NCBI GenBank assembly: GCA_947170725.1
Contig: CAMVUM010000016.1
Location: 1 to 64,000 of the forward strand
Length of the DNA stretch: 64,000 nt
DNA from: an uncultured Prevotella sp.
Lineage (GTDB): Bacteria > Bacteroidota > Bacteroidia > Bacteroidales > Bacteroidaceae
Direction: 5' to 3'
In this document: positions 3,121-59,103 of the stretch, in pieces
How positions within the stretch are numbered: position 1 is the first letter of the stretch
Layout of the letters: every line of letters begins with the position of its first letter
The notes under the pieces: model-generated
Told to the model about the DNA's origin: nothing
Databases searched by the model: none
What the model saw: the letters and a program-made list of their open reading frames with translations, nothing else
Made by a program: the position numbers and the translations under genes

Positions 3121-3153
3121 AATAAACGTGAGTTCGATGAACTCACGTTATTT
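3121..3153. repeat. Perfect 15-bp inverted repeat with 3-nt loop
   Basis: aataaacgtgagttc-gat-gaactcacgttattt. Confidence 0.9.
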
Positions 3154-3471: not shown

Positions 3472-4716
3472 CTACCTCCTCGGCTTTCCCAATATAATGT
3501 CGTCCTTTCCGTCGTCGGGGAGCGTTTCGACGTGGCCGCCGTCTTCGGGTTGTGACGGAAGCGTGGTGCGGTAGATGTTGAGCTTGCCGGACTTGAAGAC
3601 AACATGTCCGCGGAGATCGGTGCGCACGATGGTAGTATCGGCAAGACCGTCATGACGGCCTTTCAGGGTCATCTCAAATTCTACCGGCAACCGGTCGCTG
3701 AACTCCTGTGGCGTGATGACGGCACAACAAGCTACGTCAACCGTGTCACGGTCGGCCGCTGAAACGCCATGCGTGCGGGCCATCGTAACGGCCGACGGTT
3801 CTGAACGGTGACAGCCGTAGAACGTTCCGCCGCCACCCGACTCGCTGGCGTTCTGAGCCTCGGCTGTCAGCACGGGCAGCAGCGTGTCGGCCGATAAGAC
3901 ATTGCGCATACGGACGATGATGCTGTCGGAACGCATTTCGGGCGTGTTGGCAACGCGGACATACAGCCGGACGTTGGTCATGACGTGGCGGAAACCTATT
4001 GTCATCGGGACATTCTCCGCCTCCCGGGCCGGAATGCCGACCGTGGGGATGCCGAAGAGGATGTCCGTTTGGCGCATGGCCTCGTCGAGGTTCTGGTCGG
4101 GATGGACGGTGACGGGGAGTCCGCTCTTCAGGTTGTCGTATGTCACGTTCTCACGATATGGGGCGTATGCCATGACGGCCACGCGGTCGGCGGTGTGCAG
4201 CGGATAGATAAATCCGAGCCCGTCAACACGGGTGATGGTTCCGTCGGCATTTATCCTGGCACGTATGTTCTCGTAACCGTATGTCCGACCGTCACGATAG
4301 GCGTCGGCGATGAGCTGAGCCTCACGGTCGGTATAGCCGTCCATAACGGCCGGAAGACCGGACGCCACGGCCCCCATATCGGGAGCGGCGATGTCTGTGC
4401 GACCGCCATCACCATACGGCCGGTCTGACGCGGCCAGCCACTCGGCGTATGAGTTTTCCTTTAGTATGAATATGCCTATTTCCGTTCCCTCTGCAAAAGT
4501 ATTGTTCTGAAAATCTGTATCTGTGCTGCGAGTGCCGTCAGTGGCAGGGCCTATGCTTACCCCACCACCAACGGAAAGCCGCAGCTGACGCACCCCTGAC
4601 AACGCCTCTGCATCGTCCGAAGGCAGCTCAATGAATGTGTTGTCAGAGGAGCACGCCGCGAGGGCGAGCGCTACGACAGACACTGCTACGGTTGTTTTAA
4701 AAGTATTTATGTTCAT
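3472..4716 (-). CDS. Fimbrillin family lipoprotein
   Basis: Signal peptide with lipobox-like LAACSSD; FAEGTEIGIFI; shares (I/V)xFxHxxxxxRL-like block with the downstream paralogs. Confidence 0.75.
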   Translation of the reverse strand: MNINTFKTTVAVSVVALALAACSSDNTFIELPSDDAEALSGVRQLRLSVGGGVSIGPATDGTRSTDTDFQNNTFAEGTEIGIFILKENSYAEWLAASDRPYGDGGRTDIAAPDMGAVASGLPAVMDGYTDREAQLIADAYRDGRTYGYENIRARINADGTITRVDGLGFIYPLHTADRVAVMAYAPYRENVTYDNLKSGLPVTVHPDQNLDEAMRQTDILFGIPTVGIPAREAENVPMTIGFRHVMTNVRLYVRVANTPEMRSDSIIVRMRNVLSADTLLPVLTAEAQNASESGGGGTFYGCHRSEPSAVTMARTHGVSAADRDTVDVACCAVITPQEFSDRLPVEFEMTLKGRHDGLADTTIVRTDLRGHVVFKSGKLNIYRTTLPSQPEDGGHVETLPDDGKDDIILGKPRR

Positions 4717-4766
4717 ATTCGGTATGTTCCTTGTGAAGTCAATATCAAAATATCAATATATGAGTG

Positions 4767-6353
4767 TTAACGGATGCCCATTTTACGACGGTAAGAGGGA
4801 TTGTCCATACTCTTATAGAATTTATTGTCCGGATTAACCAGACCTAACATCTTCCAATATTTCCCTACCTTTCTTATCTCTTTATTCAAAAAATAATAGT
4901 AACCCATATATTGCAGGGAGTTTTCCAAACACTGCTTTGGATATTTGGCAAGGTCTGCGCGCTGATATAACAAACTAATTGTCTGTTCGGCATCGGAAAG
5001 ACAAAGTCCGTTTTTGAATTCTTCATCCAAAACTTTTGTCGCAATCATAATGCGTTGCATACGGGCAACCGCATAATTATCCAGCAAGTCTTCCGCCAAA
5101 GCCAGTTTCGCCATCTCGTCGAATGTCTCAAAAGCATTGGTGTAGGCAGAAAGTTTTTCTGTTCCATTCAAGAAATCAGATTGCTCGACATACAACTTTG
5201 CCAATTCGTTCAAGTCCAAAGACTGTAGTTTTCCTGCCGCGTCCATGTAGGCCATATACTTTCTGTACTCCTCAATAGCCTCGTCAATATAGCCCTTAGA
5301 CTTATACGCGTCCACTATTTTCTTCATTGCATTGCCTTTCTGTCTAATCTCCTGACGCTTCATATTCTCATACGACTCATCGGACTTATAGTCAGACCGC
5401 TTTATCTCATAATCAACACACTTCTGATAAATGGCAATGGCATCATCATAACGTTTCAGACCGAGATAAGCATCACCATAATTGAGGAAGTCAGTGAAAT
5501 CTATTTCAAGACTATCGGATTTATTGAACAAAACATCAGCCACATCCAAAGCCTGATCATATTTCTTTATATGCTTATTCACACAGTTTTGCAACATCAG
5601 GCGATTGAGGTCTGCGTTAGAAGGATATTTCAAGAGAGCCAATGACAGAATGGAATCAGAACGGTTATAAGCTCCGACACCGGCACCACCGGCACCAGCT
5701 CCCTGTAACAGTCGAACATAACCTTCTATTTGTTTCGGGGTCATAAGAGATATATCTGCCTTAGAATATGCTTCAATCGCTTGATTAGTGTAATCCAATC
5801 CTGCTTTAAGGTCAATTGCATCTACATACAGACGGCCTATCTCTACATATATATTGGCTTCCGGATTGACATTTGCCAACTCTTCCAATTTCCTCACAGC
5901 CCCTTCAACATCCCGCTGACTGTTTTTCTCATTCGCCATCAACCGGGCGTATGCCAGATAACCTTCCGGATCTTTAGGATTAAACGCTATAGCAAGGTCA
6001 TAATTCGAGTAGGCTTTCAATGTGTCGCCCCACATTCTATAGACCGTACCACGCAAGATATGAGCTGGCACATATTTCGCATCTACAGCCAAAGCCTTGT
6101 CTATATACGCCAGGACAATCGTACTGTCGTTAAAAGCATTATATGCCTTTGCTATGCCTGTCAGCACCTCCGGATTGTTCTTGAATTTCGGATATATCTC
6201 TTTCTGTATAAAATGTTCCGCGTTCTGCTCGTGCTTCCATATCACCTTAGTGATGGCCTTTATCGTCGCGTCCGGGTCCGATTGTGCCTGCGCGCCGATT
6301 GCCGATGTCAGCATCATGACTGCCGTCAGAACATATCTTGCTATCTGTTTCAT
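4767..6353 (-). CDS. TPR-repeat protein of the fimbrial-type operon
   Basis: Signal peptide; helical repeats such as AYSNYDLAIAFNPKDPEGYLAYARLM and GDAYLGLKRYDDAIAIYQKCVDYE. Confidence 0.8.
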   Translation of the reverse strand: MKQIARYVLTAVMMLTSAIGAQAQSDPDATIKAITKVIWKHEQNAEHFIQKEIYPKFKNNPEVLTGIAKAYNAFNDSTIVLAYIDKALAVDAKYVPAHILRGTVYRMWGDTLKAYSNYDLAIAFNPKDPEGYLAYARLMANEKNSQRDVEGAVRKLEELANVNPEANIYVEIGRLYVDAIDLKAGLDYTNQAIEAYSKADISLMTPKQIEGYVRLLQGAGAGGAGVGAYNRSDSILSLALLKYPSNADLNRLMLQNCVNKHIKKYDQALDVADVLFNKSDSLEIDFTDFLNYGDAYLGLKRYDDAIAIYQKCVDYEIKRSDYKSDESYENMKRQEIRQKGNAMKKIVDAYKSKGYIDEAIEEYRKYMAYMDAAGKLQSLDLNELAKLYVEQSDFLNGTEKLSAYTNAFETFDEMAKLALAEDLLDNYAVARMQRIMIATKVLDEEFKNGLCLSDAEQTISLLYQRADLAKYPKQCLENSLQYMGYYYFLNKEIRKVGKYWKMLGLVNPDNKFYKSMDNPSYRRKMGIR

Positions 6354-6387
6354 ATCGTCATGCTTTAAAGATTGGTTCAGAGTTGGT

Positions 6388-8514
6388 TCATAACTTATAC
6401 TGTACGCCGAGGTTGAGCGTTTCGAGGTATCTCAACTTTAAGGACTCCACACAGGGCAACCGGTCGTTTGTCAGAAGATAGATGGTCGGGGTGAAAACGA
6501 CGGCCAGACGCGGCGTGACGCTTGCGGCGAGCTTCACGCCACCATGGAATCCTAAACTCACGCCTGTCTCCAACGGTTCTTTCTTGCGCACCTCGTGGCC
6601 AGCCAATAGGCGTTCGTCCTTCGAGAGTGAAGCATTCTCGCCGAAGATGATAGCGCACGTAGGACCAGCGAAGACGCTGAACTCAAACAGGCGGTTGGGA
6701 CGATAGCCGTCACACAGGGTTATCAGATTGGCCATGTAGCTGGCAGAGAGAAAACCGAGGAAATAGCGGTGGTTCCAAAGACCTTTGCGCGATACGGGAG
6801 TATAGTTGTCGGCGACGTTGGCCATGTTATAGTCAATGAAATTTGTCATGCCGGTAGCGGCGAAAGAAGCGAATTCAAACGCCAGACGCGCAGAGAAGAT
6901 GTCGTTGACACGATATTCGCCATATGCAAGACCGTTGTAGGCTATTGATGATGCCCCTGCGTCGTATCCGCCCTTGGTCTGCATGAGATTCATACCGCCG
7001 CCCAGACCAACCGTCATGCGGCTTTCGGCTGCGACGGCCTTCTCGGTTGCATCGACCTTCTGACGGAAGCGACGACCGCGGGTGAGGACGGTCAGACCCA
7101 TGTTGAGTGTGTAGTTGTCGTCAGAATAGCGCTTGTTCCAATCAACGTTGGAATAAGGAATCTTATATGAGTAATATGTGTAGCACGGCTCGACGAACAG
7201 TTGGAGACCGGGTGTCAGGCTTGTCCACAGATGAAGACCAGCCGAATAGGATTCTGTGCGACAGGCCAATTTGCGGTCGTTTTGATATTTGGACATGCGA
7301 CCGATGCCTACTCCGCCCACGACATAAAATCCGAAACGGCTGTCCCAATCGTAGTTCCTGTTGAATCCGAAGGGATTGAGCAGGGCCTCGGCACGCGCAC
7401 CGAAGTAGAGGCTGTTGTAGTAGCGGTGATACTCGGGATGATATGGCGACGGTTCTTCGGCAATGGTGGTTTTCTGCCATGTGCCGATGGCTGTGGCTGC
7501 TGACAGACGCAAACCTATTACGGGCGAAATCCACTTACCGGCAGCCACCGCGATCTCATGACCCATGGTCTCCGCAAAGGGAAGCCCTACGGAACTAACG
7601 AAAGTAAATCCGTTGGAAACCTCAAAAAACCACGGCTGCCGCCACGATTGGAGCATAGAGTCGGCGGTGAGATAGTTGCGTTCAGACCTGGAGCGGATGA
7701 ACATGTCGCGGGAACGCCGCGAAAGATTGTTATTAAGATAATAAATGAAGTTGATGTTGGCTCCATAGAACATGTCGACACGTCGCCAGTTGCGGTATTC
7801 GCTCAGGTCCATTGCGTCGGTTGCAATACCATAGTAGGGTTCTACGTTTATGTAGCCCTGCGGACCTGTGAAGAAACGAAACTGGAGCCCCAGATGGGCC
7901 TCAAATGCCTTGCCACTGGAACCGGTGAGTCCCAGATGGGCATACTGTGCGCCCACGCCAAGCACGGTCGAGACATCAAGCAGACGGGCGGGATTGTAGC
8001 CGTTGATATAGGACGAAAGGCTGAACAAGTGGTCCAGTTTTGCGTTATATTTATAGAAGAAAATGTCTTTATCCTTCTGATAACCGAAAGCGCCGCCCAG
8101 CGTGAGACGCACCGAATGGAGTCGTGTCAGAGTCTTGCCCACACCGATGTGGGCCGTGGTGAGCGTGTTGAAGTTATAGTCGTGAACGGCAGGCACCATC
8201 TGTTCCAGGCCGATGCCTCCCTCAACAAAGAAATTGTCGTACCACCGACGTCTGATGGAGTCACCATAGTAGAGATGGCGGTGTTCCATCTTGTACTGCA
8301 TGGCGTCAAGACCAGTTGCCAGATTCTTCCTGCTTCTTCCTATAGTGTCGGTACCGACCATCGACTCATCCTCGGGGATTGTATCCTGCACAGCCGCAAT
8401 ATGCTGCTGCCATGAGGCTTCTGCGGTATGGTCCGTCGTATTGCTGGCCGACGTCGTCACAACAAAAGCCAGTCCAAATGTCAATATGAATATGCTATTT
8501 CTCATCGGTTTCAT
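6388..8514 (-). CDS. Large outer-membrane beta-barrel protein (708 aa)
   Basis: Signal peptide; alternating amphipathic strands with aromatic/Gly-rich segments; ends ...ETLNLGVQYKL. Confidence 0.7.
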   Translation of the reverse strand: MKPMRNSIFILTFGLAFVVTTSASNTTDHTAEASWQQHIAAVQDTIPEDESMVGTDTIGRSRKNLATGLDAMQYKMEHRHLYYGDSIRRRWYDNFFVEGGIGLEQMVPAVHDYNFNTLTTAHIGVGKTLTRLHSVRLTLGGAFGYQKDKDIFFYKYNAKLDHLFSLSSYINGYNPARLLDVSTVLGVGAQYAHLGLTGSSGKAFEAHLGLQFRFFTGPQGYINVEPYYGIATDAMDLSEYRNWRRVDMFYGANINFIYYLNNNLSRRSRDMFIRSRSERNYLTADSMLQSWRQPWFFEVSNGFTFVSSVGLPFAETMGHEIAVAAGKWISPVIGLRLSAATAIGTWQKTTIAEEPSPYHPEYHRYYNSLYFGARAEALLNPFGFNRNYDWDSRFGFYVVGGVGIGRMSKYQNDRKLACRTESYSAGLHLWTSLTPGLQLFVEPCYTYYSYKIPYSNVDWNKRYSDDNYTLNMGLTVLTRGRRFRQKVDATEKAVAAESRMTVGLGGGMNLMQTKGGYDAGASSIAYNGLAYGEYRVNDIFSARLAFEFASFAATGMTNFIDYNMANVADNYTPVSRKGLWNHRYFLGFLSASYMANLITLCDGYRPNRLFEFSVFAGPTCAIIFGENASLSKDERLLAGHEVRKKEPLETGVSLGFHGGVKLAASVTPRLAVVFTPTIYLLTNDRLPCVESLKLRYLETLNLGVQYKL

Positions 8515-8556
8515 CTTTTCTTCTTAATTCTCTTGTTTCAGTGCTACTGTATCAGC

Positions 8557-11247
8557 TTATGCCCCGGCTTCCGTAGATGCTGCGGCTGACGGTGTCTCTG
8601 CGGTCTGACCAGCGGTATTTTCCGTTCCATCTGCGGAATTTCCGTCGTCTCCGCCCGTTCTTTCAGATTCGCCATACTCTTCCGGCATTATTTCCTTGCG
8701 ACGGGCGTCGTCACGGCGCTTCAGCCATTTGAAGACTTCCTCATAGGCGGCAAAATCCTTTTTGAGGTACTTCTGCTTCTTGCGCATTTCGTCATCCACA
8801 TGTCCCTCACTATAATAATAACGCTTGTATGTAGGTTCGAGCTGGAAACTATGATGAAAATAAGCCAAGTAATGCTTTATCCCGTCTGTGTTGACAGGTT
8901 CCTTCTCCTCAACTTCCACAACCGGCTCATTGGCATGAGTCTTCTCATACTCTTCCAAATCAAGACGGTATTTTGCGTATGCCGCCGGGTCTTTCATCAT
9001 CAGGGCGTCTTCTTCATCCATGGACAACTTCCGGAAGCCGTCCTCCGTCTCATCCTGCATATATGCACTCATATCCGGCTGGGTCTCAGCCTTCGTTGAC
9101 CAAAGGATGCCTTTGAGATACCATTTCTTCGGGTTGCTGTCATCCATACATGTGACCAAATCGTCGGCCTCTTCGAACGACAGACGCCAATCCGGAACTT
9201 CTGTATATAATATGGCTTTGTTTTCCGTGCCGGAATTAAGAATATAATTCTTCGCCTCAATGAACTTAGGATTTTCTTCATCCTTGCCGAAATAGCTCTT
9301 GAGGTTCATGAACATCTCCAACTTGTCAAGGCCGGCGGGAGACGCACCATATTCCTTCAACCAGTTGATATATTCCTGCGCCTTACCGAACTTCTGCATC
9401 TGATAGTAGTTGAGAGCCTGAGCGACATAGATGTCGGCACGGTTCATCTTTACGATGACACCGTCCTTATTAACAGGGACGCCAATACCTAACGAGTCAT
9501 CAATGAACGGAGCCAGCAACAATGTATCGGGAGTTCCGTGACGTTGCATGAGACGTGCCATGCGATAATAGACATACGGCGCAATCTTCTTGGTATGCAT
9601 ATCCGCTTCCGGCATTTTCCTCAACCAGTTGTATGCCAGCATAGTGATTGTGTCCAGCTCTACCGTATCATTGGCCAGCCCCATGTAAAGGTTATAATAG
9701 TCTCCGCTCGACAAAGGTTTTCTTTTTCCGGAAAGAAAATCGTGTTTATCACGATAATAAACATTCACAACCTCGTCCTGTGTATAGACGTGCTGGCTGA
9801 TATACGAGTATGTACATTTCATGGCACGCATATCCTCCAATATCGGCATAACAGACGATTCATAGAATGGGAGACCACGCACAGCAGCATAAACAGCCGT
9901 ATTGTTATTGCCTTTCGCTGCAATGATTTCACGCACAGCCTTGGCCTCTTCCACTCTACGAAGCTTGTCCAGCTCAACCGCAACTTCTTCCCACGTATAG
10001 ACATACGATTTTACTGAAAGAGACAATCTGGAAGGAAGATACTGGCTGATAAATGCCCGCGCCTTGTTTGCACGTCTCAACGCAAGGTCACGATTGAATT
10101 TCTCTCCGCCATCCGGCGATGCTGTTCCGACAATAGCCGGAGCAACCAATGTATTTCCGAAAGACTTCAGTTCTTCCGTGATCTGTATTCGTGTTACTTC
10201 GTTTATGGAGTCTTGAGTCAATTCATCCTTACCTGTTAAAAACTTCAGTTTTAAGGCTTGTGCGACATTATCCACCTGGTCTTCCGCCATATCATAATAC
10301 TCTTCCGTCAGTTCCATCTCAGGTATGGCAACCGAGAAGTCGAGGAATTTGAACGGACGTATTCTCAGACATGAGCCTCCGACCATGTTTTCATAATAAA
10401 CCCGGTGATAGTCTTCAATGGCATATCTGGTCGGACCTTTATAGTCACGCTTGGGATCTTTCTTTGTATATACTATGGTAGTGTCTATTAACGTAGGGAT
10501 TCCACCGGAAGCATATCCTGAAGCAAGTTTGTCATTCTTGTGGAAATCAAAGCTCATACGCTTGTCTTGCAGACCATGATATTCTGATTCATCATAAACT
10601 ATAGGTGTACAATAGGCAACAGTATCATCCGTCATACAATCCACGGCATACGTCTGCAAAATCAGGCGCGACGATTCCTTAATCAAGTTTTGGTCAATAG
10701 GTATCCGTATATTAAACCGCTCGTCACCATCACCTGTGTCAATGATGACAGTCCGTGGTTTCAGCTGTCGCTTTCCTAACTTCCGGACTTCATCCTTTCT
10801 ACTTATTTCTATAGGAGGAACCGTATAGTCAGTCACCCCTTCCTTCACTTCAAACGTCACGATTTTACCGTCTTCCTCAACCAACAGAAGAATTGCCATT
10901 CCCGGAAAAACGTTCACGCCACTGGCTCTACCGTTGCCGGCTGTCTTTTTGCTGATGGTGTTTTTCCTCTTGTACTCAGCCAAATTGTTATACATACGAA
11001 GCGGGTCGGAACTGGCATATATCTTTGTGAGCTCCGCCTCCATTCTCTTTGCCTCCTGTATATTGGCACACATTTTATATAATACAGGTTCTGTGGACTC
11101 TTTTTTGCTGTCCTTATTATAAAGTTTCACTCTAAAACTTATCTGCATAGCTTCCTGCGCCTCTGCCTCCACCGTTCCGAGGCTGAGCATGACGACAAGC
11201 AGCAGGAGGGTTGTTGCCGCTGAATATATCTTGTTTCCTGACTTCAT
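8557..11247 (-). CDS. Large OmpA-like domain protein (896 aa) with acidic low-complexity C-terminus
   Basis: Signal peptide; OmpA-like segment GTASPDGGEKFNRDLALRRANKARAFISQYL; C-terminus GDDGNSADGTENTAGQTAETPSAAASTEAGA. Confidence 0.7.
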   Translation of the reverse strand: MKSGNKIYSAATTLLLLVVMLSLGTVEAEAQEAMQISFRVKLYNKDSKKESTEPVLYKMCANIQEAKRMEAELTKIYASSDPLRMYNNLAEYKRKNTISKKTAGNGRASGVNVFPGMAILLLVEEDGKIVTFEVKEGVTDYTVPPIEISRKDEVRKLGKRQLKPRTVIIDTGDGDERFNIRIPIDQNLIKESSRLILQTYAVDCMTDDTVAYCTPIVYDESEYHGLQDKRMSFDFHKNDKLASGYASGGIPTLIDTTIVYTKKDPKRDYKGPTRYAIEDYHRVYYENMVGGSCLRIRPFKFLDFSVAIPEMELTEEYYDMAEDQVDNVAQALKLKFLTGKDELTQDSINEVTRIQITEELKSFGNTLVAPAIVGTASPDGGEKFNRDLALRRANKARAFISQYLPSRLSLSVKSYVYTWEEVAVELDKLRRVEEAKAVREIIAAKGNNNTAVYAAVRGLPFYESSVMPILEDMRAMKCTYSYISQHVYTQDEVVNVYYRDKHDFLSGKRKPLSSGDYYNLYMGLANDTVELDTITMLAYNWLRKMPEADMHTKKIAPYVYYRMARLMQRHGTPDTLLLAPFIDDSLGIGVPVNKDGVIVKMNRADIYVAQALNYYQMQKFGKAQEYINWLKEYGASPAGLDKLEMFMNLKSYFGKDEENPKFIEAKNYILNSGTENKAILYTEVPDWRLSFEEADDLVTCMDDSNPKKWYLKGILWSTKAETQPDMSAYMQDETEDGFRKLSMDEEDALMMKDPAAYAKYRLDLEEYEKTHANEPVVEVEEKEPVNTDGIKHYLAYFHHSFQLEPTYKRYYYSEGHVDDEMRKKQKYLKKDFAAYEEVFKWLKRRDDARRKEIMPEEYGESERTGGDDGNSADGTENTAGQTAETPSAAASTEAGA

Positions 11248-11334
11248 AGATACTTTTATCTTTACTTACAGAGTTTCTTGTATGTCGACCTGAATGTTTA
11301 TGACGTTATTCCTTTATATACAATATCTGCGAAC

Positions 11335-11892
11335 CTATTTTAGTATATAAGAGACTGACACGCCGATGCGTGTCGGTAAAAAAACATAACCCTTAGCATT
11401 AGCGCGTTCAATACCGCCGATGGAGTAGTCGGTGTCGTATTTATCATTTTCAAAATATTCCTTATGTCGGTATACTATCGCGCCGAAACCGGCATGGCAG
11501 TCGATGTTCAGCCGATGTGTGATACTGAATACATAGCCGAATGTCAGTCCCACGCCAAGGGCCAGACCGTCGTAAACTTTTCCTTTCCATGTGATGTCAT
11601 ACGAGGCACCGATGCCTCCGATTCCCACAAACTCACGGTGCATGGGACGGCCGGAAAAGAAATATCTGTATTCCGGCTGTACGCCAATGAACCTGATATC
11701 CTTTCCCCACGGCTTGCTACAGCCCAATACGTTGAAGCCCAATGTCGAGCGTTCGCCCGTCACAAGTTCAAATCCCAAACTCGGGGTCATAAGCAGGTCC
11801 GTGGCCACATCCGTGTTCACGGCCAACATCTGAGCGTCAGCGTTGCGGCACCCCATTGCGATGAGGAATATCAAGAGTAGTTTTTTCATCAC
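11335..11892 (-). CDS. DUF3575-like protein
   Basis: 185 aa; AVNTDVATDLLMTPSLGFELVTGERSTLGFNVLG...VQPEYRYFFSGRPMHREFVGIGG pattern of DUF3575 in fimbrial loci. Confidence 0.8.
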   Translation of the reverse strand: MMKKLLLIFLIAMGCRNADAQMLAVNTDVATDLLMTPSLGFELVTGERSTLGFNVLGCSKPWGKDIRFIGVQPEYRYFFSGRPMHREFVGIGGIGASYDITWKGKVYDGLALGVGLTFGYVFSITHRLNIDCHAGFGAIVYRHKEYFENDKYDTDYSIGGIERANAKGYVFLPTRIGVSVSYILK

Positions 11893-12170
11893 TTTTTCAT
11901 TATGCAGCCTGCTGCGGTCGCCGCTGCGTATGTCATGGCGACCCTGCTGCCTGATTTCTGTCCCGCCATTTGGTGGCGGTAAATAGTCATTTTTTTGTTA
12001 TCTATAACCAACCGCGAACCGCACAGACTGTCCTCTATCTTGTGGAGACAGCCTCTTTTGAAAGACATTCACTTTTTATGGAGACAGCTCCCTGCTAAAA
12101 AGGAGACCGTCTGTGCGTTATCGCAGTCCTTTCGGTGTTTCCACCATAATGCAGTCGTTCTCTCCGTGGA

Positions 12171-13340
12171 TCAGAGAGTCACGCCGCCGATGTTGTCGTC
12201 GTCGATTTCCCACGGTGCCAGCGTCGCATTGAGATAAATCTCCTGCGGCCCATGGACGGTGAGTTTGACGTTATAAGACTTTCCTGCCTGATAGGAGGCC
12301 GAGTTCTGCAGTTCAATCGGATGTTCCGACCGGAATACGTTTCCGTCACGGTCCATCAGCGTGATTTCCACGAGATAGCGGAAGCCGGCTGCGGCCATCT
12401 TCACGTCAGGAACGGGCAACAGGATGCCCTGTCCGAGCGTAATCTCGTTATCCTGAACCCAGTGGTCTTCGCGGAAGTTGGCGTCAAGACTGTCTTTCAG
12501 CAGGAAATCGTCCACGTTGTTGTTCCAGTCATAAAGAATAGTTCCCTCATTGGCCGCATTGTCCAAGTCGGCAACAATCAGATTGGCTACCGTCGGCACG
12601 GACTTGATGGCGACGCTCTTGACGCCCATCTTCTTGGCCGATTCTTTGGAGCCCTTAACGTCCTCACCCGGAACGCAGCTGAACGTGAGACGCATCAGCA
12701 TGTGCTTGAAGGCTATCGAAGGAATTTTATTCTCATTACCTGCATGATGGAAATATTTAGCGCAATAGGCCTGCGGGTCTGTTGACGTCGTGCGTCCCCA
12801 GATGACATCCTGCGTTCCATCAATAGGAATGGAGGCTATACGCTGACGCGCTCCAACTGTAATCAGGTGGTCAGCGACACGGGGATAGTAACCGTAGAAA
12901 TGATAGCTATACCAGTTTCCAACAGGATACCAGCGCGTCAGGCCGTCCGTCCACACGATATTCGTGGCCACGGCTACGCCCTCTGCGGTCTTTTCGTAAA
13001 CGGCGTTTGACTCCACATTGTCCATCCATGCCGAATAGTTGGGTTCGCTTCCATAAGCATACGACCAATCTATCGGTAGCTCGTTGGGATTGACGCTCAG
13101 CGTTCCATTGGCCAAACAGAAGATACCCAGACCCTCGGCCTCGAAGAGACCGGCGTCGTCCGGCTCCAAGCTGGCACGTGTGCCGGCTGCGCCCGACGAC
13201 AGGCGTATCTCTACAGGAGTTCCCACGCCCACACCACCATCGGCAGCTTCGCTGTCAGGCGACAACGTTTCGTCGTTGCCCGAACAACCGGCCAGAACAT
13301 ATACGGCAGCAAAGCCGAATATCCACAAGTGTTTGTTCAT
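12171..13340 (-). CDS. Fimbrillin family protein
   Basis: Start taken at MNKHLWIFGFAAVYVLAGCSGND (ORF track extends further upstream, overlapping the next gene); IDGTQDVIWGR...IAFKHMLMRLTF. Confidence 0.82.
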   Translation of the reverse strand: MNKHLWIFGFAAVYVLAGCSGNDETLSPDSEAADGGVGVGTPVEIRLSSGAAGTRASLEPDDAGLFEAEGLGIFCLANGTLSVNPNELPIDWSYAYGSEPNYSAWMDNVESNAVYEKTAEGVAVATNIVWTDGLTRWYPVGNWYSYHFYGYYPRVADHLITVGARQRIASIPIDGTQDVIWGRTTSTDPQAYCAKYFHHAGNENKIPSIAFKHMLMRLTFSCVPGEDVKGSKESAKKMGVKSVAIKSVPTVANLIVADLDNAANEGTILYDWNNNVDDFLLKDSLDANFREDHWVQDNEITLGQGILLPVPDVKMAAAGFRYLVEITLMDRDGNVFRSEHPIELQNSASYQAGKSYNVKLTVHGPQEIYLNATLAPWEIDDDNIGGVTL

Positions 13341-13350
13341 AATACAATGT

Positions 13351-14565
13351 TTATACCTCCGGATCGATTTCAACATCATCCGCTTCGTCAGATAGCCACG
13401 AATCAAGAGTTGTTGTAATCTTGATTTCTTCAAGGCCATATACCTTTATGCTAACCTTATATGAATGTCCTGCCTCAAATTTGTCTTTTCCCTCATTGGG
13501 CTTTATCAACAAGGCATTCTGGCCATTGTCAACATCTCCATAAGAATAGTAAACGACATCTGTTCCGTTTCCGGTTTCTACTTCCTGGGAAAGTTCAATC
13601 AACAGATTATACTCTGACTCCGGAGATACCAACAAAGCCTCACCTACATCAGAACCTTTCTCATCAAGAACAAATTCCTTCAAAGGAATCAAAGCGCTTT
13701 TCTTATCTGCATCGTTAGAACGCTGCTTCAGACTTACATAGCTCAGTTCCTGCTCGGGAGTCCATACAAGCTGCTCAAGTTCTTCACCTGTATATGCCAC
13801 GATAAGCTGACCTGTTGTCTTAGACTTAACTGCAATTCTCTTAATTGTAATATTGTCACTGTTCGGAGTTACATTGAACTGCAAACGTGTAAGCAAGTGC
13901 TTAAACACAAGATTAGGTTGAACTTCATTGCGAGTTGCGTAAGCAGAGAATACTCTGTCAGGAGATATTCCTTTTTCGTTTGCTTCATCAGCCTTAGCAA
14001 CCATAACATCCTGTGAGCCGTCTATTTCAATATTGAAATAAATCTTACCGTTTTCATTTATATAGTCTCCCTTGATGGCACTGTTCTCTGTTCCACGCTC
14101 CTCATCAGCTGCATCTATATGATAGGCAAAGAAACTATAAACGCCGTCAGTCGGATAATATCTTATGGTAGATCCAACGCCTTCCGCATCCCCGGGAATT
14201 GTAGCGACAGCGCTGGTTACACCGTTAGGAGCATACATCAACTGATCGTTGAAAAGGAATTTCTTTAGTTCCGGCCTTATAGGATCCAAAGCCAGTTTCA
14301 ATTTTCCATTCTCATCAAGATTTAACTTATCAATCATAAACACACGGATAGGCTGACCATTCCAGACATTACTTACGTCGTCTGTTCCACCGACAGTACC
14401 GCTACCACGAGTAATGACAGAGTTAGACATGCCAAGCTTAACCGGCACGAGTTCTGAGTTGTTACTGCCATCATTAGCAGTTACACCTGCCCCGATAGAC
14501 TCTTCCTGTGAGCAACTGCAGAGTAAACCTGCTACTGCAAATGCGAAAAACAAAGATTTCTTCAT
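13351..14565 (-). CDS. Fimbrillin family protein
   Basis: Lipoprotein signal GLLCSCSQEE; IDGSQDVMVAKA...LVFKHLLTRLQFNVTPNSDNITIKRIAVKS. Confidence 0.85.
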   Translation of the reverse strand: MKKSLFFAFAVAGLLCSCSQEESIGAGVTANDGSNNSELVPVKLGMSNSVITRGSGTVGGTDDVSNVWNGQPIRVFMIDKLNLDENGKLKLALDPIRPELKKFLFNDQLMYAPNGVTSAVATIPGDAEGVGSTIRYYPTDGVYSFFAYHIDAADEERGTENSAIKGDYINENGKIYFNIEIDGSQDVMVAKADEANEKGISPDRVFSAYATRNEVQPNLVFKHLLTRLQFNVTPNSDNITIKRIAVKSKTTGQLIVAYTGEELEQLVWTPEQELSYVSLKQRSNDADKKSALIPLKEFVLDEKGSDVGEALLVSPESEYNLLIELSQEVETGNGTDVVYYSYGDVDNGQNALLIKPNEGKDKFEAGHSYKVSIKVYGLEEIKITTTLDSWLSDEADDVEIDPEV

Positions 14566-14633
14566 GTTTTTAGTTTTTTTATTAATACTAAAGTCTCTTA
14601 TTTATTATAGTTGTCTGTATCTCTTGTAATACC

Positions 14634-16067
14634 TCAGTCATTTCTTATATCAACATCAGTAGGATCTTTATCCCCATTCACAGGAATATCATCTTCCTCT
14701 TCAATCCAATTCATTATATTAGCAGTTACGGCTATTGGCTTAAGACCATACACCACAATACTGATAGTATAGTAATGTCCTTTCAAGAATCCGCCATTAG
14801 ACAATTTCACATTATAATTTGCATAGTACTCTTTTCCGAGGTCATTACCTTTATCATCTTTCTGTCTGAAATAAAGTTTTATATTATATGTTTCCTGTTC
14901 CGGAATCATGATAGATCCACCCACTTTTTTGCTATCTCTTTCATAATAGTTCGTACCTTTGTACGCATCTTTCCACCAACCGATACCGTCTACATTTTTA
15001 AATTCACCACATTCTCCACCATTAACAGCTTCACCTTTCAGCGGTATATAAGTCTTTGAATCCAGATCCGGATGATAACCGATGGGACGATAATTCTGAC
15101 TCGCCACATGAGGATTGGCATTAGCCACAACCAACGTTCCTTTATTTGGCGCTTCCACCTCTACACCAGTGATGGTTATTCTTTCAACTTCCTCGTCGCC
15201 AGGATAAGCCTTAAAGTCGAGTCTCACGAGCTGGTGGGTCAAATCAACCGTAGGATTGACGCCACGATGAGCTGCGAACGTACTATAAAGACCTAAATTC
15301 AATATTTTCTGACGCTCTTCCTCGGTCATATTGGATATATTTTGCTGTTTTTCAAGAACCTCTGACGTCAGCCACGGTGCATATCCGCACATTATATCCT
15401 GCGTACCATCTATTGTCAGATCATACGAGATTTCCTGAGTATTCTGTACTCCTCTATGAGGAAATGCCGTTTCAACCAGATTATCTATATGATAAGCAAA
15501 GAAATTATATCCTACATCTTGATGGGCTGTACTATAATAAACTTGTTCTGACAATATTTTACCTTCTTCATCTTCCGAAGGATCTTTTTTAATTGAGATA
15601 AAGTCAAATGCTCCAGGATAATCATTGGTCAATTTCGCCATAAACCCATAGTTGTAGTCTTCTTTGCCATCAACAAGACAATCGTCAGCATCTTCATCAT
15701 GCGTAAATTCCGGAGCAAAGCGCGTCTTGCTTAAATCGGGAGCGTATGCCAAAGAACCTTGGCCTGGTTTATCTTCAGTACCTCTGAACGCAAAGACATA
15801 AAACTTCGATTTCTCATACTTCTTGTTAGACAAATCCGTGAACGGTCCTGTTCCACCGCTTTTCGTTGCAGCAATGGAAAAGAAGTTCTGCGGATTGATG
15901 AACACCATTATCGGCGTCTTGTCGTATGACTCCTCATTCGGTATCATGCTATTGTTGCCACTATATTCCAGTCCGGGATAAGATTCGGAACATGATGCCA
16001 CGCTCACAGCCGCTACCGCAGCCATGGCACATTTCGCTATATTCTGTATGTACGTCTTCTTTATCAT
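14634..16067 (-). CDS. Fimbrillin family protein
   Basis: Signal VSVASCSES; IDGTQDIMCGYAPW...VDLTHQLVRLDFKAYPGDEEVERITITGVEV. Confidence 0.85.
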   Translation of the reverse strand: MIKKTYIQNIAKCAMAAVAAVSVASCSESYPGLEYSGNNSMIPNEESYDKTPIMVFINPQNFFSIAATKSGGTGPFTDLSNKKYEKSKFYVFAFRGTEDKPGQGSLAYAPDLSKTRFAPEFTHDEDADDCLVDGKEDYNYGFMAKLTNDYPGAFDFISIKKDPSEDEEGKILSEQVYYSTAHQDVGYNFFAYHIDNLVETAFPHRGVQNTQEISYDLTIDGTQDIMCGYAPWLTSEVLEKQQNISNMTEEERQKILNLGLYSTFAAHRGVNPTVDLTHQLVRLDFKAYPGDEEVERITITGVEVEAPNKGTLVVANANPHVASQNYRPIGYHPDLDSKTYIPLKGEAVNGGECGEFKNVDGIGWWKDAYKGTNYYERDSKKVGGSIMIPEQETYNIKLYFRQKDDKGNDLGKEYYANYNVKLSNGGFLKGHYYTISIVVYGLKPIAVTANIMNWIEEEDDIPVNGDKDPTDVDIRND

Positions 16068-16151
16068 CTCGATTGTTTATATCTTGTATCGTTGTCTTCT
16101 TTTCTCTATAATTCTATATACGTTGGTCGTAATGGTAAGGCCACAACGGAA

Positions 16152-17417
16152 TCAAATGTCAACGATGATTCTGTCCGTGCAATCTTTCCACGGGTCTATA
16201 CCACCGGTATTATCGTCATTTTCAAGAATATTTTTACCATCTATGACGATATCCGCCACGATGTTCAACACACCTTTTGCTCCATTGCGGATTGCATGAC
16301 GGCCGTCGCTCGTCACCGTCATCAGGTTGGCGTGGCGCAGGGTGTTATAGAGGTTTATCTTTCCCTGTATCTTCTTTTTCTTCTTCGCAATACCGTCACT
16401 TTCCGATGGGTTGGACACAACATTTCCTTTCTCGTCATAGACTACGGAATGTGTGAAAATAATGACCTGCAATATGCCTGGGCCGGTACTTACATCCGAC
16501 GTATTGTTCTGGACAATGCTTGGAACATCTATTGATCCACACACCTTTATGAAAGTGGAGGTTTCGCTGTCCTTGATTTCGTCTGCTTTTGTCATGACCT
16601 TGCACGTGCGGTCTATCTTCAGATAGCCGTTGGCCAGATTTATCTCTCGCGGAACACCTGACATCTCAATCCAAACCGAATCAACAAAGAATCGGACATC
16701 GTTCTCCTTTCCCTTACCGACAAGATTTAGCTTCTTCTTGATTGCGAAGTTGATGTCTATGTGCTGTGTTACGGGCCTCGGCGAGAACCTGCACTTCACG
16801 GTCGCTCCGTTTCCTATGCGGCGTGCAGTCAGAGTGTCATAGAATACCGGGCAAATGTCCGGCTGAATGTATTGGGCGTATGGATTGTAGTCCTGCCAGT
16901 CTACAAGTGTCTTGCGTAAACCTTCCTCACCTTTGGAATAAACTTTGTATTCCCCATAAATATCCTGCAGATTCATCATACCCGTCTCATCCATCAGATA
17001 TTTATCGACATCGGAATATATCATTTCCTCGTCGTTCACTCTGAATGCGATGAGCTTGTAGTCACCGGGGCGTATCTGAAATTCCGTAAGTGTGCCAGTC
17101 TGTGAAACAGCCGGTTTGGCGTCGGGGGGCGTCTCCGGACCGTTGAACATAAAGCGGCCGCGGACGGGATTTTGGGGACTGACTTTCATTGCCGCTTTCC
17201 AGTGGTTGATGACCCTGTCGGCTATTACATACATGGAGTCATCGGCTGCGATGTCTTTCTCGTATGCACCCCAGTTGAATTCATATTTGACTTTAGCCAG
17301 ATGCGGGTGTTGGGGGGTGTCGCACAGTTCAACGTCAGTGGTGCACGACGAAAGTGACACTACGGCGAGCATAACGGCCATAACTGTCTTTATCATCATC
17401 ATCTTTTTTGTCTTCAT
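16152..17417 (-). CDS. DUF5119/FimB-like lipoprotein
   Basis: Signal SLSSCTTDVELCDTPQHPHLAKVKYEFNWGAY; operon position next to DUF3575. Confidence 0.75.
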   Translation of the reverse strand: MKTKKMMMIKTVMAVMLAVVSLSSCTTDVELCDTPQHPHLAKVKYEFNWGAYEKDIAADDSMYVIADRVINHWKAAMKVSPQNPVRGRFMFNGPETPPDAKPAVSQTGTLTEFQIRPGDYKLIAFRVNDEEMIYSDVDKYLMDETGMMNLQDIYGEYKVYSKGEEGLRKTLVDWQDYNPYAQYIQPDICPVFYDTLTARRIGNGATVKCRFSPRPVTQHIDINFAIKKKLNLVGKGKENDVRFFVDSVWIEMSGVPREINLANGYLKIDRTCKVMTKADEIKDSETSTFIKVCGSIDVPSIVQNNTSDVSTGPGILQVIIFTHSVVYDEKGNVVSNPSESDGIAKKKKKIQGKINLYNTLRHANLMTVTSDGRHAIRNGAKGVLNIVADIVIDGKNILENDDNTGGIDPWKDCTDRIIVDI

Positions 17418-18820
17418 TCAGCGTCCTCCTTTCCTTGATTGGTTTCAGAAGTCTGTTCCAGAGGAGTCTCTGACGGAGCCCCTTCGCTTGTTGCGGGAGA
17501 TTCCCCGGCTTCGGGGGCTGGTGCTACTTCCGTGGATTCGGTTTCAGCGTCAGCCATAGGCGTAGATTCTTCCGAAGCGGCATCTTCCGCAGGTTCGGAT
17601 TCTGAAGAATCGGCCGTAGGGGTAGCGGTGATATCGGCGGGAGCAGTCATGCTGCTGTCCGACGGAACAGCCGTGCTGCCGGAAAGGACAGCGGCTTCGC
17701 CCGACGGCGCCGTAATGGACAGGCTGTCAGAAGTGACGATACCGGATGACAGGCTGTCTGTGGTCAGAACCGTGCTTTCGGCCCGTGTCTTTGCTGCGGC
17801 CTTGGCTGCTTTGGCGTCGAGGCGGGCCTGACGTTTGCGCTCTTTCTCGGCCTGACGGGCCTGTGCTACTGCGGCGGCCTTGACACGATTGAGAGAGTCT
17901 GTCTCTATCTTCTTTATGCCCATGATTGAGTCATAGTGATGCCAGAAGTCCTTGCTGACAACAGCTGTAAGACTGTCGCTGTAACGCTTATCGGCAGCGG
18001 CTCTTTCTTTTGCGGCATAGATACTGTCAATGCGGTCTCTATATACTTGGTCGCAGTCATAGCGCCAACGATACTTCTTTGTGACAGGATAGCTTCCGAG
18101 ACGGTAAACGAATCCAACGTGGAGATCGCTTACTACGGGATGGACACCGCTCTGGGAGCGTTTCGTCACAGGATAGCAGTCGCTCTCACGGTCGTGGCGA
18201 TACTTGTCGTATGACGCAAAAGCCAGACCGGCGCTGACGCCGAGGTCGAAGTCGAGACTGTTGCCGTTCTTGAAAACGTATAAAGGTTTCACTATACCAT
18301 AAGTAAAACCGGCTGTGACGGCCGAGCCTTGATAGCCCTCCGAACCGAGGAGTTTGATTGAGTATTTGTTGTATGACAGATATGCGCCGCGATAGAAGAG
18401 CAGCCCGGGATGCTTCACACGGGTGCGGCGACACGAGAAAACACGGTCGATGAATCGTGTGTGTCTACTGACACCTTCGTCTCCTATCTGACGCGGCCGC
18501 CAGTAGTTCCGGAAATAGAGGCGGGCGCCCATAATGTTGTAGACAAGTCCGGATTTAAAGGTATTTTTGGTCTGCCAGTTATAGCGCAGATCCATACCTA
18601 CGGCCCAGCGGTTCCAGTTGGTGGAACGAACGTCAAACTCAACGCCGACATTTGGCGTTAGCAGAGTCCAATCAACCATATTGGTGTGAAACGAAAGCCG
18701 TTCGGCCAGAGACAGCGTATCTACCCGCATACTTTTATCTACACCCTGAGCCGAAACGGGAAGGGAGAAGGATAAATATATATACAGGCAAATTATGCCT
18801 TTCAAGTAACACAATCTCAC
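17414..18820 (-). CDS. DUF3575 protein with long Ser/Thr/Ala/Glu-rich C-terminal tail
   Basis: SFHTNMVDWTLLTPNVGVEFDVRSTNWNRWAVGMDLRYNW; tail ...APADITATPTADSSESEPAEDAASEESTPMADAETESTEVAPAPEAGESPATSEG. Confidence 0.82.
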   Translation of the reverse strand: MRLCYLKGIICLYIYLSFSLPVSAQGVDKSMRVDTLSLAERLSFHTNMVDWTLLTPNVGVEFDVRSTNWNRWAVGMDLRYNWQTKNTFKSGLVYNIMGARLYFRNYWRPRQIGDEGVSRHTRFIDRVFSCRRTRVKHPGLLFYRGAYLSYNKYSIKLLGSEGYQGSAVTAGFTYGIVKPLYVFKNGNSLDFDLGVSAGLAFASYDKYRHDRESDCYPVTKRSQSGVHPVVSDLHVGFVYRLGSYPVTKKYRWRYDCDQVYRDRIDSIYAAKERAAADKRYSDSLTAVVSKDFWHHYDSIMGIKKIETDSLNRVKAAAVAQARQAEKERKRQARLDAKAAKAAAKTRAESTVLTTDSLSSGIVTSDSLSITAPSGEAAVLSGSTAVPSDSSMTAPADITATPTADSSESEPAEDAASEESTPMADAETESTEVAPAPEAGESPATSEGAPSETPLEQTSETNQGKEDAE

Positions 18821-55657: not shown

Positions 55658-56596
55658 GTGCTTAAGCATTGTTTCGCGATATTGACATTTATGCTCATGA
55701 CCTCTATAGAGGCCATGGCGCAATATGACCCCTCGTTCGCCCACTATTGGGCAATGGAGCCGTCGTTCAATCCAGCGGCCGTCGGCAAAGAGAACAAGAT
55801 CAACGCCGTCGGCGCATACAACATGACCCTGACCGGATTCGAGAACAACCCGCGGACGATGTATGCCGCAGGCGACTTGCCATTCTATTTCCTACGGTCC
55901 TACCACGGAGTTGGAGCACGGTTCATGAACGACGAACTGGGACTTTTCTCCCACAAGACCTTCGCCCTGCAATACGCTTTCCGCACGAAGCTCTTCGGCG
56001 GACGCATAGCCGCAGGCGTCAACATCGGCCTGCTCAGCGAATCGTTCGATGGAACCAAGGTGGACACGGAAATACCGAACGACCCGGCTTTCCCTACGTC
56101 GGAAGTCAGCGGCACAGGCGTTGATCTCGGTGCCGGACTCTACTACACCCACGGACAATGGTATGTGGGAGCGTCAGCCCTCCATCTCAACGCCCCGGAA
56201 GTGGAACTCGGAGAGAGACAGGAGCTGAAGATTGACCCGACATATTATTTGACGGGAGGATACAATATTCGGCTCAGAAACCCGTTCTTATCAATACATC
56301 CCAGTGTGCTCGCACGCACGGACGCCACGGCATGGCGGGTCGATGTGACCGCACGGGTCAGGTATTCCTACGAGAAACGGGTAATGTATGCCGGCCTGTC
56401 CTACAGCCCCACAAACTCCGTGACAGTGCTCCTCGGCGGCAATTTCCATGGCATCAGTCTCGGCTACAGCTACGAAATCTACACCTCGGCCATCAGCATC
56501 GGTAACGGCAGCCACGAGATCTTCATCGGCTATCAGACGGACATCGACCTACAGAAGAAGGGACGAAACAGACATAAAAGTGTGAGAATACTATAA
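55658..56596 (+). CDS. porP: PorP/SprF family type IX secretion system membrane protein
   Basis: QYDPSFAHYWAMEPSFNPAAVGKENKINAVGAYNMTLTGFENNPRTMYAAGDLP; upstream of gldK; GTG start in track. Confidence 0.88.
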   Translation: MLKHCFAILTFMLMTSIEAMAQYDPSFAHYWAMEPSFNPAAVGKENKINAVGAYNMTLTGFENNPRTMYAAGDLPFYFLRSYHGVGARFMNDELGLFSHKTFALQYAFRTKLFGGRIAAGVNIGLLSESFDGTKVDTEIPNDPAFPTSEVSGTGVDLGAGLYYTHGQWYVGASALHLNAPEVELGERQELKIDPTYYLTGGYNIRLRNPFLSIHPSVLARTDATAWRVDVTARVRYSYEKRVMYAGLSYSPTNSVTVLLGGNFHGISLGYSYEIYTSAISIGNGSHEIFIGYQTDIDLQKKGRNRHKSVRIL

Positions 56597-56685
56597 ACAA
56601 ACAGTATAAAAAACAACAGCGGAGACGGATGCCGCCACGGCGCACGTCCTACAGCTCCCGACATAAATCCTATATATATAATTAT

Positions 56686-58140
56686 ATGTGTAAGAAAAGA
56701 TGTAGCATAGCTCTCTGCCTCATAGGCCTGATTGCGCTGACGGGCTGCTTCGGCGGCCAGTCCACTTCAGCGTCGGGTGGCGAAGTCACGGGAGCAGGCG
56801 GCAGGGCCTTCACAGAACCCACGCCATACGGCATGACCCTCATCAAACGCGGCCACCTGCGAATGGGCATTGAACAGCAGGACAGCCTCTGGGGCAAGCA
56901 GACGCCGGTGAAGGACATATCGGTGGAAGGATTCTGGATGGACGAAACGGAAATAACAAACTCACAGTACCGCCAGTTTGTCAACTACGTGCGCGACTCA
57001 ATCATACGTGAACGCCTCGCCGACCCGGCCTACGGCGGCGACGAGACATACAAGATAGAGGAAGACAAGAACGGGGACCCCGTCAAGCCCTACCTCAACT
57101 GGAAAAAACCGCTGCCGCGCAAACCCAATGAGGACGAGCTGAGGGCCATAGAGAGCGTCTATACCGTAAACCCCGTCACGGGAGAGAAAATGCTCGACGC
57201 CTCGCAGATGAACTTCCGCTACGAGGTCTACGACTATACCACAGCCGCCATGCGCCGCTTCCGCCTCAACCCGCAAGAGCGTAATCTCAACACCGATATC
57301 ACCGTCAATCCCGCCGAAGAAGTGTGGATTTCAAAAGATACGGCCTATATCGACGACGAGGGACGCATAGTCCGCGAGACCATCAACCGCCAGCTGAGCG
57401 GTCCGTGGGACTTCCTCAACACCTACATCGTCAACATCTTCCCCGACACAACGTGCTGGGTCAACGACTTCCCCAACGCCGACAACGAGACCTACATGCG
57501 CCTTTATTTCAGCAACCCGGCCTACAACGACTATCCCGTGGTCGGAGTCACCTGGGAACAGGCCAACGCCTTCTGCGCCTGGCGCACGGAATATCTCCTC
57601 AAAGGCCTCGGCGCCGCCGCACGATATGTCCAGCGCTACCGTCTGCCGACAGAGGCTGAATGGGAATATGCCGCACGCGGAAAGAACCAGAACGAATTTC
57701 CATGGGAACAGGCACAGACGGCCAGCGAGAGCGGCTGCTTCTTCGCCAACTTCAAACCCGACCGCGGAAACTACACCAAGGACGGAAATCTCATAACCAG
57801 CAAGGTAGGAATCTATTCGGCAAACTCAAACGGTCTCTATGACATGGCCGGAAATGTGGCCGAATGGACCAGCACCATCTACACCGAGGCCGGCGTAGAA
57901 GCCATGAACGACATCAACCCGCAGCTGCGCTACAACGCCGCCAAGGAAGACCCCTACCGCCTCAAGCGCAAGAGCGTGCGCGGAGGCTCGTGGAAAGACC
58001 CCGAGTCCTACATACGCTCGGCATGGCGCTCGGCCGAATATCAGAACCAGCCGCGGTCCTACATAGGATTCCGCTGCGTCCGCAGTCTGGCCAACACCAC
58101 AAGCGAGAAGTCAAAGAAAACAAAATCGAAGAAGAAATAA
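56686..58140 (+). CDS. gldK: Gliding motility/T9SS lipoprotein GldK (PorK)
   Basis: Lipobox LTGCFGG; FGE-sulfatase-like fold GFWMDETEITNSQYRQFVNY ... SVRGGSWKDPESYIRSAWR. Confidence 0.94.
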   Translation: MCKKRCSIALCLIGLIALTGCFGGQSTSASGGEVTGAGGRAFTEPTPYGMTLIKRGHLRMGIEQQDSLWGKQTPVKDISVEGFWMDETEITNSQYRQFVNYVRDSIIRERLADPAYGGDETYKIEEDKNGDPVKPYLNWKKPLPRKPNEDELRAIESVYTVNPVTGEKMLDASQMNFRYEVYDYTTAAMRRFRLNPQERNLNTDITVNPAEEVWISKDTAYIDDEGRIVRETINRQLSGPWDFLNTYIVNIFPDTTCWVNDFPNADNETYMRLYFSNPAYNDYPVVGVTWEQANAFCAWRTEYLLKGLGAAARYVQRYRLPTEAEWEYAARGKNQNEFPWEQAQTASESGCFFANFKPDRGNYTKDGNLITSKVGIYSANSNGLYDMAGNVAEWTSTIYTEAGVEAMNDINPQLRYNAAKEDPYRLKRKSVRGGSWKDPESYIRSAWRSAEYQNQPRSYIGFRCVRSLANTTSEKSKKTKSKKK

Positions 58141-58143
58141 GCC

Positions 58144-58974
58144 ATGACAGTCTACAGTAAGTTCAACATAGTATATCAGCTGCAGAAGTGGCTCGACAGC
58201 GTGCCGGGCCAGACGTTCCTCAACTACGCCTACAGCTGGGGAGCATCAATCGTAATCCTCGGAACTCTGTTCAAGCTGACCCACCTCCCCGGAGCCAACA
58301 TCATGCTCTACCTCGGAATGGGCACGGAGGTCATCGTGTTCTTCATATCAGCCTTCGACCGGCCTTTCGACAAGACGGCCATCGGCAAAGACCTGCCCAC
58401 CCATCTGGAGGACGAGAAGAACGGTGAAGAAGCCGAAAGCGGAGCCGACGGCGTCATGGCCGGCAGCCAGCCGGTCATCAGCGGCGGTGTTCCGGGCGGA
58501 ACAATCATAATAGGTGGAGGCAGGCCCTCCCCCGACGCCATCCACCCAGCGGACGGTACTGTGGCGGCAGTCGGTTCTGATGCCACTGTGGCTGCTGCGG
58601 GCGGAACGAACATCGGCGGAAACGCCGTGCCCGGATGGATTCAGGGCCAGCAGCAGGTATCCCCGGAAATGGAAGAGGCCACATCCAACTATGTGGATGA
58701 GCTCAACCGCCTGACCGAGATGCTCGCCAAGGTTGCCGAGCAGAGCCAGAGGCTCACACGCGACTCCGAAGAGATGGAGAACCTCAACCGCACGCTGACC
58801 GGCATCTGTAAGGTCTATGAAATGCAACTCAAAGGCGCAAGCGCCCAAATCGGCACCATCGACCAGATCAACGAGCAGTCACGCCGCATGGCCGAACAGA
58901 TAGCGGAACTGAACCGCATCTACGCCCGGATGATTGAGGCCATGACGGTCAACATGAACAAAGTGCAGAGCTGA
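58144..58974 (+). CDS. gldL: Gliding motility/T9SS protein GldL (PorL)
   Basis: Two N-terminal TMs NYAYSWGASIVILGTLFKLTHLPGANIMLYLGMGTEVIVFFISAFDRP. Confidence 0.94.
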   Translation: MTVYSKFNIVYQLQKWLDSVPGQTFLNYAYSWGASIVILGTLFKLTHLPGANIMLYLGMGTEVIVFFISAFDRPFDKTAIGKDLPTHLEDEKNGEEAESGADGVMAGSQPVISGGVPGGTIIIGGGRPSPDAIHPADGTVAAVGSDATVAAAGGTNIGGNAVPGWIQGQQQVSPEMEEATSNYVDELNRLTEMLAKVAEQSQRLTRDSEEMENLNRTLTGICKVYEMQLKGASAQIGTIDQINEQSRRMAEQIAELNRIYARMIEAMTVNMNKVQS

Positions 58975-58997
58975 CAACATAATTTTTAAACCTTCAG

Positions 58998-59042
58998 GAC
59001 CTTAAAGACTTTAAAGACCTTAAAGACCTTAAAGACTTTAAA
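58998..59042. repeat. 9-bp tandem repeat GACYTTAAA x5 between gldL and gldM
   Basis: gaccttaaagactttaaagaccttaaagaccttaaagactttaaa. Confidence 0.95.
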
Positions 59043-59103
59043 GAGTAAAAAAAAACAGGATTCTGAAAACAGAAAGACTTCGGCCCCATAACAGAAAACA
59101 ACT

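Follow-up and report, generated by a model that had tools for sequence, protein, structure and literature searches.

The 64,000-nucleotide stretch analysed here (the window: positions 1 to 64,000 of contig CAMVUM010000016.1, from an uncultured Prevotella sp.) carries ten co-oriented genes on its minus strand, running from 18820 down to 3472, which we name in order DUF3575a, FIMB, FIM1, FIM2, FIM3, DUF3575b, OMPA, BARREL, TPR and FIM4. All ten open reading frames (ORFs) lie where an original prediction from the sequence had placed them, and in the order it gave. That prediction described an expanded fimbrillin-type operon in which a giant beta-barrel, an OmpA-like protein and a TPR protein are embedded. 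The barrel gene, BARREL (6388..8514), is reinterpreted here: its 708-residue product is firmly predicted to be three covalently linked eight-stranded outer-membrane barrels and no single giant barrel.

Neither BARREL nor OMPA, searched as a single sequence, matched anything in the PDB, and a single-sequence AlphaFold2 model of full-length BARREL was uninformative (predicted local distance difference test score, pLDDT, 27.5). The architecture is instead seen in the family. A unit profile of 190 positions, run on 109 homologous BARREL proteins, resolves the window copy into units of type A-B-C: unit A at 7729..8304 (residues 71–262, E-value 1.2e-39), unit B at 7087..7662 (residues 285–476, 5.1e-42) and unit C at 6391..7041 (residues 492–708, 2.1e-30). 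The 109 proteins have from 1 to 13 units of ∼190 residues: 39 of them have three units, 31 have five, and most others lie in the range from four to thirteen; where there is a single unit, the gene is short or a fragment. Against the PDB the unit profile gave four matches with E<1, all of them outer-membrane barrels (EstA, TtoA, NspA and a designed barrel), and the Pfam family OMP_b-brl was matched by 12 of 40 units.

Mean-field coevolution analysis of 462 units (effective number 335) yields the antiparallel ladders of an eight-stranded meander, together with a beta1–beta8 ladder that closes it. When 336 adjacent unit pairs were aligned, both units showed the closing ladder internally (1.47 and 1.17 standard deviations, sd; for the closing-ladder pair 27–185, 5.4 and 6.2 sd in the two units), and beta8 of one unit does not pair with beta1 of the next (−0.01 sd). 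When beta1 was exchanged among sister units of the same protein, as a control, the ladder fell from 1.07 to a mean of −0.29, with a maximum of 0.10 in 20 replicates. The beta4–beta5 ladder is weak at the register tested in the adjacent-pair alignment and is present in the 462-unit and swap-control analyses. Because units close internally, show no coupling to one another and lose the ladder in the swap control, each appears to be its own eight-stranded barrel. An AlphaFold2 model of unit A, made with window sequences only, has exactly eight strands in the same places as coevolution puts them (mean pLDDT 67.1; predicted template modelling score, pTM, 0.65). Foldseek matches this model to NspA (1.5e-6), Ail, OmpA, OmpW, PagL and OmpX; there were 65 matches with E<=0.001, and 50 of 50 among the matches listed are membrane barrels. 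The outer-membrane barrel fold originally proposed therefore stands, and the giant single barrel gives way to a predicted multi-barrel protein, with at least two separately closed outer-membrane barrels per chain; coevolution, swap control and unit A model all argue against a wide single barrel of the usher or secretion-pore kind. Similarity between the unit profile and that of DUF3575b is weak and partial (14.9% probability), so we do not claim common descent of the units and DUF3575.

The linkers between barrels are short (median 16 residues), and the predicted outer loops (0.30–0.56 bits per column) are far less conserved than the inner turns (0.84–1.49), which fits barrels whose two ends are both periplasmic. 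In fimbrillin-linked lineages most arrays read A(BC)n, beginning with ABC, ABCBC and ABCBCBC and reaching thirteen units. B–B and C–C identities within the longest arrays are ∼30–80%, against ∼12–20% between B and C, and this excess of within-type identity indicates growth by duplication of a B–C barrel pair. Nearly all fimbrillin-coupled loci have A(BC)n arrays, which also occur with DUF3575a alone, and most stand-alone arrays with four, five, six or eight units do not obey the rule.

BARREL follows two genes with which it forms a core triad. DUF3575b (11335..11892; PF12099, 2.2e-32) opens the triad and encodes a single DUF3575 outer-membrane protein. OMPA (8557..11247) encodes a probable periplasmic multidomain protein of 896 residues, for which the earlier label ‘OmpA-like’ holds for one part: the profile of 30 members matches, in order along the chain, a SusC N-terminal domain (9.3e-7), an OmpA-type domain (0.0034) and the TPRs of CHIP (∼0.006) in the PDB, in agreement with Pfam matches of its relatives to CarbopepD_reg_2 (1.2e-9), OmpA and TPR. 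The OmpA-like domain covers residues ∼333–402 and the C-terminal half is TPR-like. The OmpA match is marginal for the window protein alone (E 0.04) and reaches 0.00013 in the best relative. Within the motif ASPDG...N..L...R of this family the S, P, G, N, L and R are invariant. All 30 sequences have Ser (S377, in ASPDG) at the position that, by comparison with the generally known motif, we take to be that of the usual Asp, and Arg R392 is invariant.

Upstream of the triad lie FIMB (16152..17417), FIM1 (14634..16067), FIM2 (13351..14565) and FIM3 (12171..13340), and FIM4 (3472..4716) ends the operon. The fimbrillin family Mfa_like_1 (PF13149) is matched by four window proteins, FIM1 (1.1e-5), FIM2 (4.6e-9), FIM3 (2e-11) and FIM4 (4.6e-10), and all four PF13149 fimbrillins detected in the genome sit in this operon; the FIM1 score is just under the curated cut-off in the window scan and at the cut-off in the genome scan. 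The FIM1 and FIM2 profiles are clearly homologous (E 3.5e-56). By inspection the fimbrillin-fold subunits carry a lipobox Cys, as predicted lipoproteins. For FIM3, the ORF from 13439 overlaps the adjoining gene, and we moved its likely start to the Met at 13340, from which it has a normal lipoprotein signal with lipobox LAGC. TRG, a candidate Arg-type processing site, is conserved near the N terminus in the FIM1 and FIM2 families; window FIM1 has Lys there, and R53 of FIM2 is nearly invariant in its family. FIMB (lipobox LSSC, by inspection) is a candidate anchor pilin of the DUF5119 family, a match that is marginal in the window copy (E 0.01, below cut-off) and made by 12 of 23 relatives, at best with 5.5e-12. 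Pfam thus bears out the original family labels for DUF3575 (twice), Mfa_like_1 (four times) and the TPRs, and those for DUF5119 and OmpA are marginal in single proteins and better in relatives.

None of the ten proteins of the operon matches the type V anchor family Mfa2/FimB (PF08842), Fimbrillin_C or DUF3868, and profile comparison of FIMB with the Mfa2 of the same genome aligned only the signal region and the stretch following it, which is no convincing match. In the PDB, the FIMB, DUF3575b and FIM1 profiles found nothing convincing. Since PF08842 is absent and FIMB is DUF5119-like, we file the locus as ‘pilus-like’ and not as a canonical type V member. From its sequence, the operon is best read as encoding a divergent type V-like pilus, with an anchor-like FIMB and the fimbrillins FIM1–FIM4, all predicted lipoproteins.

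Within the family, full-length OMPA is encoded by 80 of 400 genomes, which span 18 of 30 genera. A second family has it in 8 of 9 genomes, and it extends to several other families of the order. We counted 106 OMPA loci, a number that includes near-identical species and contig ends; of these, 98 have BARREL, 95 DUF3575b, 51 DUF3575a, 32 FIMB, 27 fimbrillins and 8 TPR, and the triad DUF3575b-OMPA-BARREL is complete in 90. FIMB or fimbrillins accompany 29 of the 90 complete triads, and in nearly all fimbrillin-bearing loci the order DUF3575a-FIMB-fimbrillins-DUF3575b-OMPA-BARREL is kept, with DUF3575a upstream of the fimbrillin block. Seven genera of this family, and one genus from another, have this ordered operon. 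The secreted TPR protein (4767..6353; Pfam TPRs) was considered as a core component and rejected: its gene is in 8 of 106 loci, all in the genus of the window organism, and is best regarded as a genus-restricted accessory. FIM4 is likewise an accessory; a strong relative of it lies directly downstream of the module at locus L031.

A named species with the coupled operon is Bacteroides finegoldii, whose strain TSDC17.2-1.1 carries it on NZ_OY725911.1 with five barrel units; the annotation there goes no further than DUF3575, fimbrillin family and hypothetical proteins. The same strain has a stand-alone triad with four units on NZ_OY725958.1, and WP_237924796.1 is a tandem-barrel protein of this species. 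Copies like those of B. finegoldii are found in one genus of this family, at loci L132–L135. Next after the B. finegoldii stand-alone triad comes a hybrid histidine kinase gene (L195, 13185–17261), and large genes occupy the same place at L037 and L133, the start of the L037 gene resembling a hybrid sensor kinase by eye. At L098, in a second family, a fimbrillin block is followed by a barrel gene of two units with three OMPA-like genes around it.

The remaining features of the window are as follows. The operon opens with DUF3575a (17414..18820; PF12099, 9.8e-13), a DUF3575-type barrel with a long C-terminal tail rich in Lys, Ala, Ser and Pro, preceded by a gap of ∼480 bp. The sole large gap within the cluster, 278 bp (11893–12170), precedes DUF3575b, the other gaps being short; in most ordered relatives the matching gap is much shorter. 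A palindromic hairpin 3′ of the last gene (3125..3149), a terminator-like site on the plus strand, is a possible terminator, a weak one as terminator-type sites are not commoner than in shuffles in the promoter/terminator scan. A dxr gene adjoins the operon; among plasmid-collection records its product comes nearest to that of Prevotella sp. oral taxon 299 (75.5%), followed by Phocaeicola (69.7%) and Parabacteroides (66.7%), which makes a Prevotella-like organism likely. The palindrome CCGTAAGGGCCTTACGG at 2423–2439 has 25 copies in the genome, against 0 for the reversed control, some in closely spaced pairs; an inexact copy is found ∼90 bp off, together with a GC-rich inverted repeat (surroundings to ∼2540), and the palindrome looks like an interspersed element of the REP/BIME type (repetitive extragenic palindrome/bacterial interspersed mosaic element). 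By eye, the ORF at 1123–1884 is a HAD-like phosphatase whose interior has a low-complexity stretch of Ser/Leu/Pro repeats (SLPSTPSLPSIPS...), and five genes at 55658–61793 resemble the type IX secretion genes porP-porK-porL-porM-porN.

Separately closed barrels on short linkers, a three-gene core and its ordered coupling to pilins invite a model, which we put forward tentatively and at slightly under even chances, in which small barrels, linked into an outer-membrane raft, have been recruited by a divergent type V pilus as its base or as a display platform. The linked barrels would make up a two-dimensional raft within the outer membrane; the conserved periplasmic edges of the barrels and the TPR/OmpA part of OMPA would tie it to the periplasm; and the variable outer loops, with the DUF3575 proteins, might hold or cluster the pilus base, so that a lipid-anchored fibre would gain a dedicated integral-membrane footing. 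A fuller version, a type V-like pilus whose lipid-anchored base rests on an integral outer-membrane raft sized by barrel-pair duplication, with the SusC-type/OmpA-like/TPR protein as its periplasmic tie, we consider rather doubtful.

Several points weigh against the platform model. The triad stands without FIMB and fimbrillins in 61 of 90 cases, so it works without pili and is not fimbrillin-specific. The FIMB and FIM1 profile searches reached no solved pilin. Of the diaminopimelate-binding Asp and Arg of OmpA/Pal-type anchors, OMPA appears to keep the Arg and to have Ser for Asp, which leaves the peptidoglycan platform first suggested unproven; OMPA may possibly bind peptidoglycan in another way. 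The contact between barrel and pilin is itself putative in this model. FimA pili of P. gingivalis assemble with fimA as the sole gene of the fim cluster (PMC3436787), so a platform would be an extra that is not generally needed.

The strongest rival holds that DUF3575b-OMPA-BARREL is an autonomous envelope module, an independent complex of outer membrane and periplasm serving as an adhesive or structural raft, and that in some lineages the fimbrillins simply share its transcript, so as to be regulated jointly. We regard this as a serious possibility, if well short of probable. Besides the 61 stand-alone triads, the usual form in other families, it has in its favour that the coupled and the stand-alone forms coexist in B. 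finegoldii. It does not readily account for the fixed gene order and the orthologous FIMB-FIM1-FIM2-FIM3 set in several genera, or for the near-universal A(BC)n arrays of coupled loci, although such arrays also occur beside DUF3575a alone. The neighbourhood conservation that was to decide whether barrels and fimbrillins belong together is mixed: the core often lacks fimbrillins, and their order is conserved where they are present.

A secretion or usher-like pore exporting the pilins across the outer membrane is suggested by the adjoining pilin genes and by a periplasmic TPR protein beside the barrels, an arrangement known from other export systems. It is very improbable, and we prefer a scaffold, because separate eight-stranded barrels are too narrow for a polypeptide and because type V pilins travel to the surface as lipoproteins and are cleaved there (PMC12632263). 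Equally improbable is that this is an ordinary locus of the canonical Mfa/Fim kind to which further genes have been added: DUF3575 and OmpA/TPR proteins do accompany a canonical locus in this genome, but the ten proteins of the operon lack its marker families, as given above, and that locus, on contig 17, has no tandem barrel array. A single 24-stranded barrel, which the 708-residue length and a total of 24 predicted strands at eight per unit might suggest, is rejected as scarcely credible given the coevolution and beta1 swap control, with closure clear inside units and no beta8(n)–beta1(n+1) coupling, and given unit numbers of 2 to 13, hardly tolerable for one pore.

The canonical Mfa-type locus on contig 17 of the same genome (L116, 433–9696) makes the present operon a second, divergent pilin locus. 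It encodes DUF3575, a DUF3868/OmpA/TPR protein, Fimbrillin_C, Mfa2, an unmatched lipoprotein and a 960-residue DUF4906 protein. In both loci a single operon brings together DUF3575, an OmpA/TPR protein and fimbrillin-type lipoproteins; the contig 17 locus alone has the DUF3868 N-terminal domain, the Fimbrillin_C shaft, the Mfa2 anchor and the DUF4906 protein, whereas the present one has a DUF5119-family anchor-like protein, several Mfa_like_1 pilins, a CarbopepD_reg N-terminal domain and tandem barrels. The architecture that the original prediction could not name is thus a recurrent ordered operon distinct from the Mfa locus, in which the DUF3575 and OmpA/TPR pair is shared with the canonical locus of this genome. 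The annotation of BT4227–BT4236 is comparable to this pairing (PMC10434189). In the open-access literature searched, DUF3868 and DUF3575 with fimbrillins appear in little beyond annotation tables, DUF5119 not at all, and A(BC)n arrays, their fixed partners and pilin coupling were not found. OMPA shares its N-terminal domain with the SusC-type extension (CarbopepD_reg_2), which it joins to an OmpA-like domain and TPRs with no TonB-dependent barrel.

Each BARREL unit has the eight-stranded fold of the single small barrels OmpA, NspA, Ail and OmpW, here linked in tandem. According to PMC8592465, multi-barrel outer-membrane proteins were predicted by Solan et al. 2021 (PNAS, doi 10.1073/pnas.2104059118), among them GfcD/YjbH, and GfcD has two barrels of 12–13 strands and a middle domain. 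BARREL resembles these in having several complete outer-membrane barrels per chain, and multi-barrel proteins being already a predicted kind, it is probably no new category; it differs from GfcD, as described there, in its 2–13 eight-stranded units, its B–C pair duplication and its fixed place beside DUF3575 and OMPA. For natural proteins that carry many outer-membrane barrels in a single chain, predictions are the main source of knowledge, and here is a barrel family of 2–13 barrels under an A(BC)n rule, with two fixed partner genes and a recurrent pilin link. Its occurrence in the named species B. finegoldii makes deletion and microscopy feasible, so that two questions become testable: the purpose of natural multi-barrel proteins, and whether any type V pilus has an integral membrane platform.

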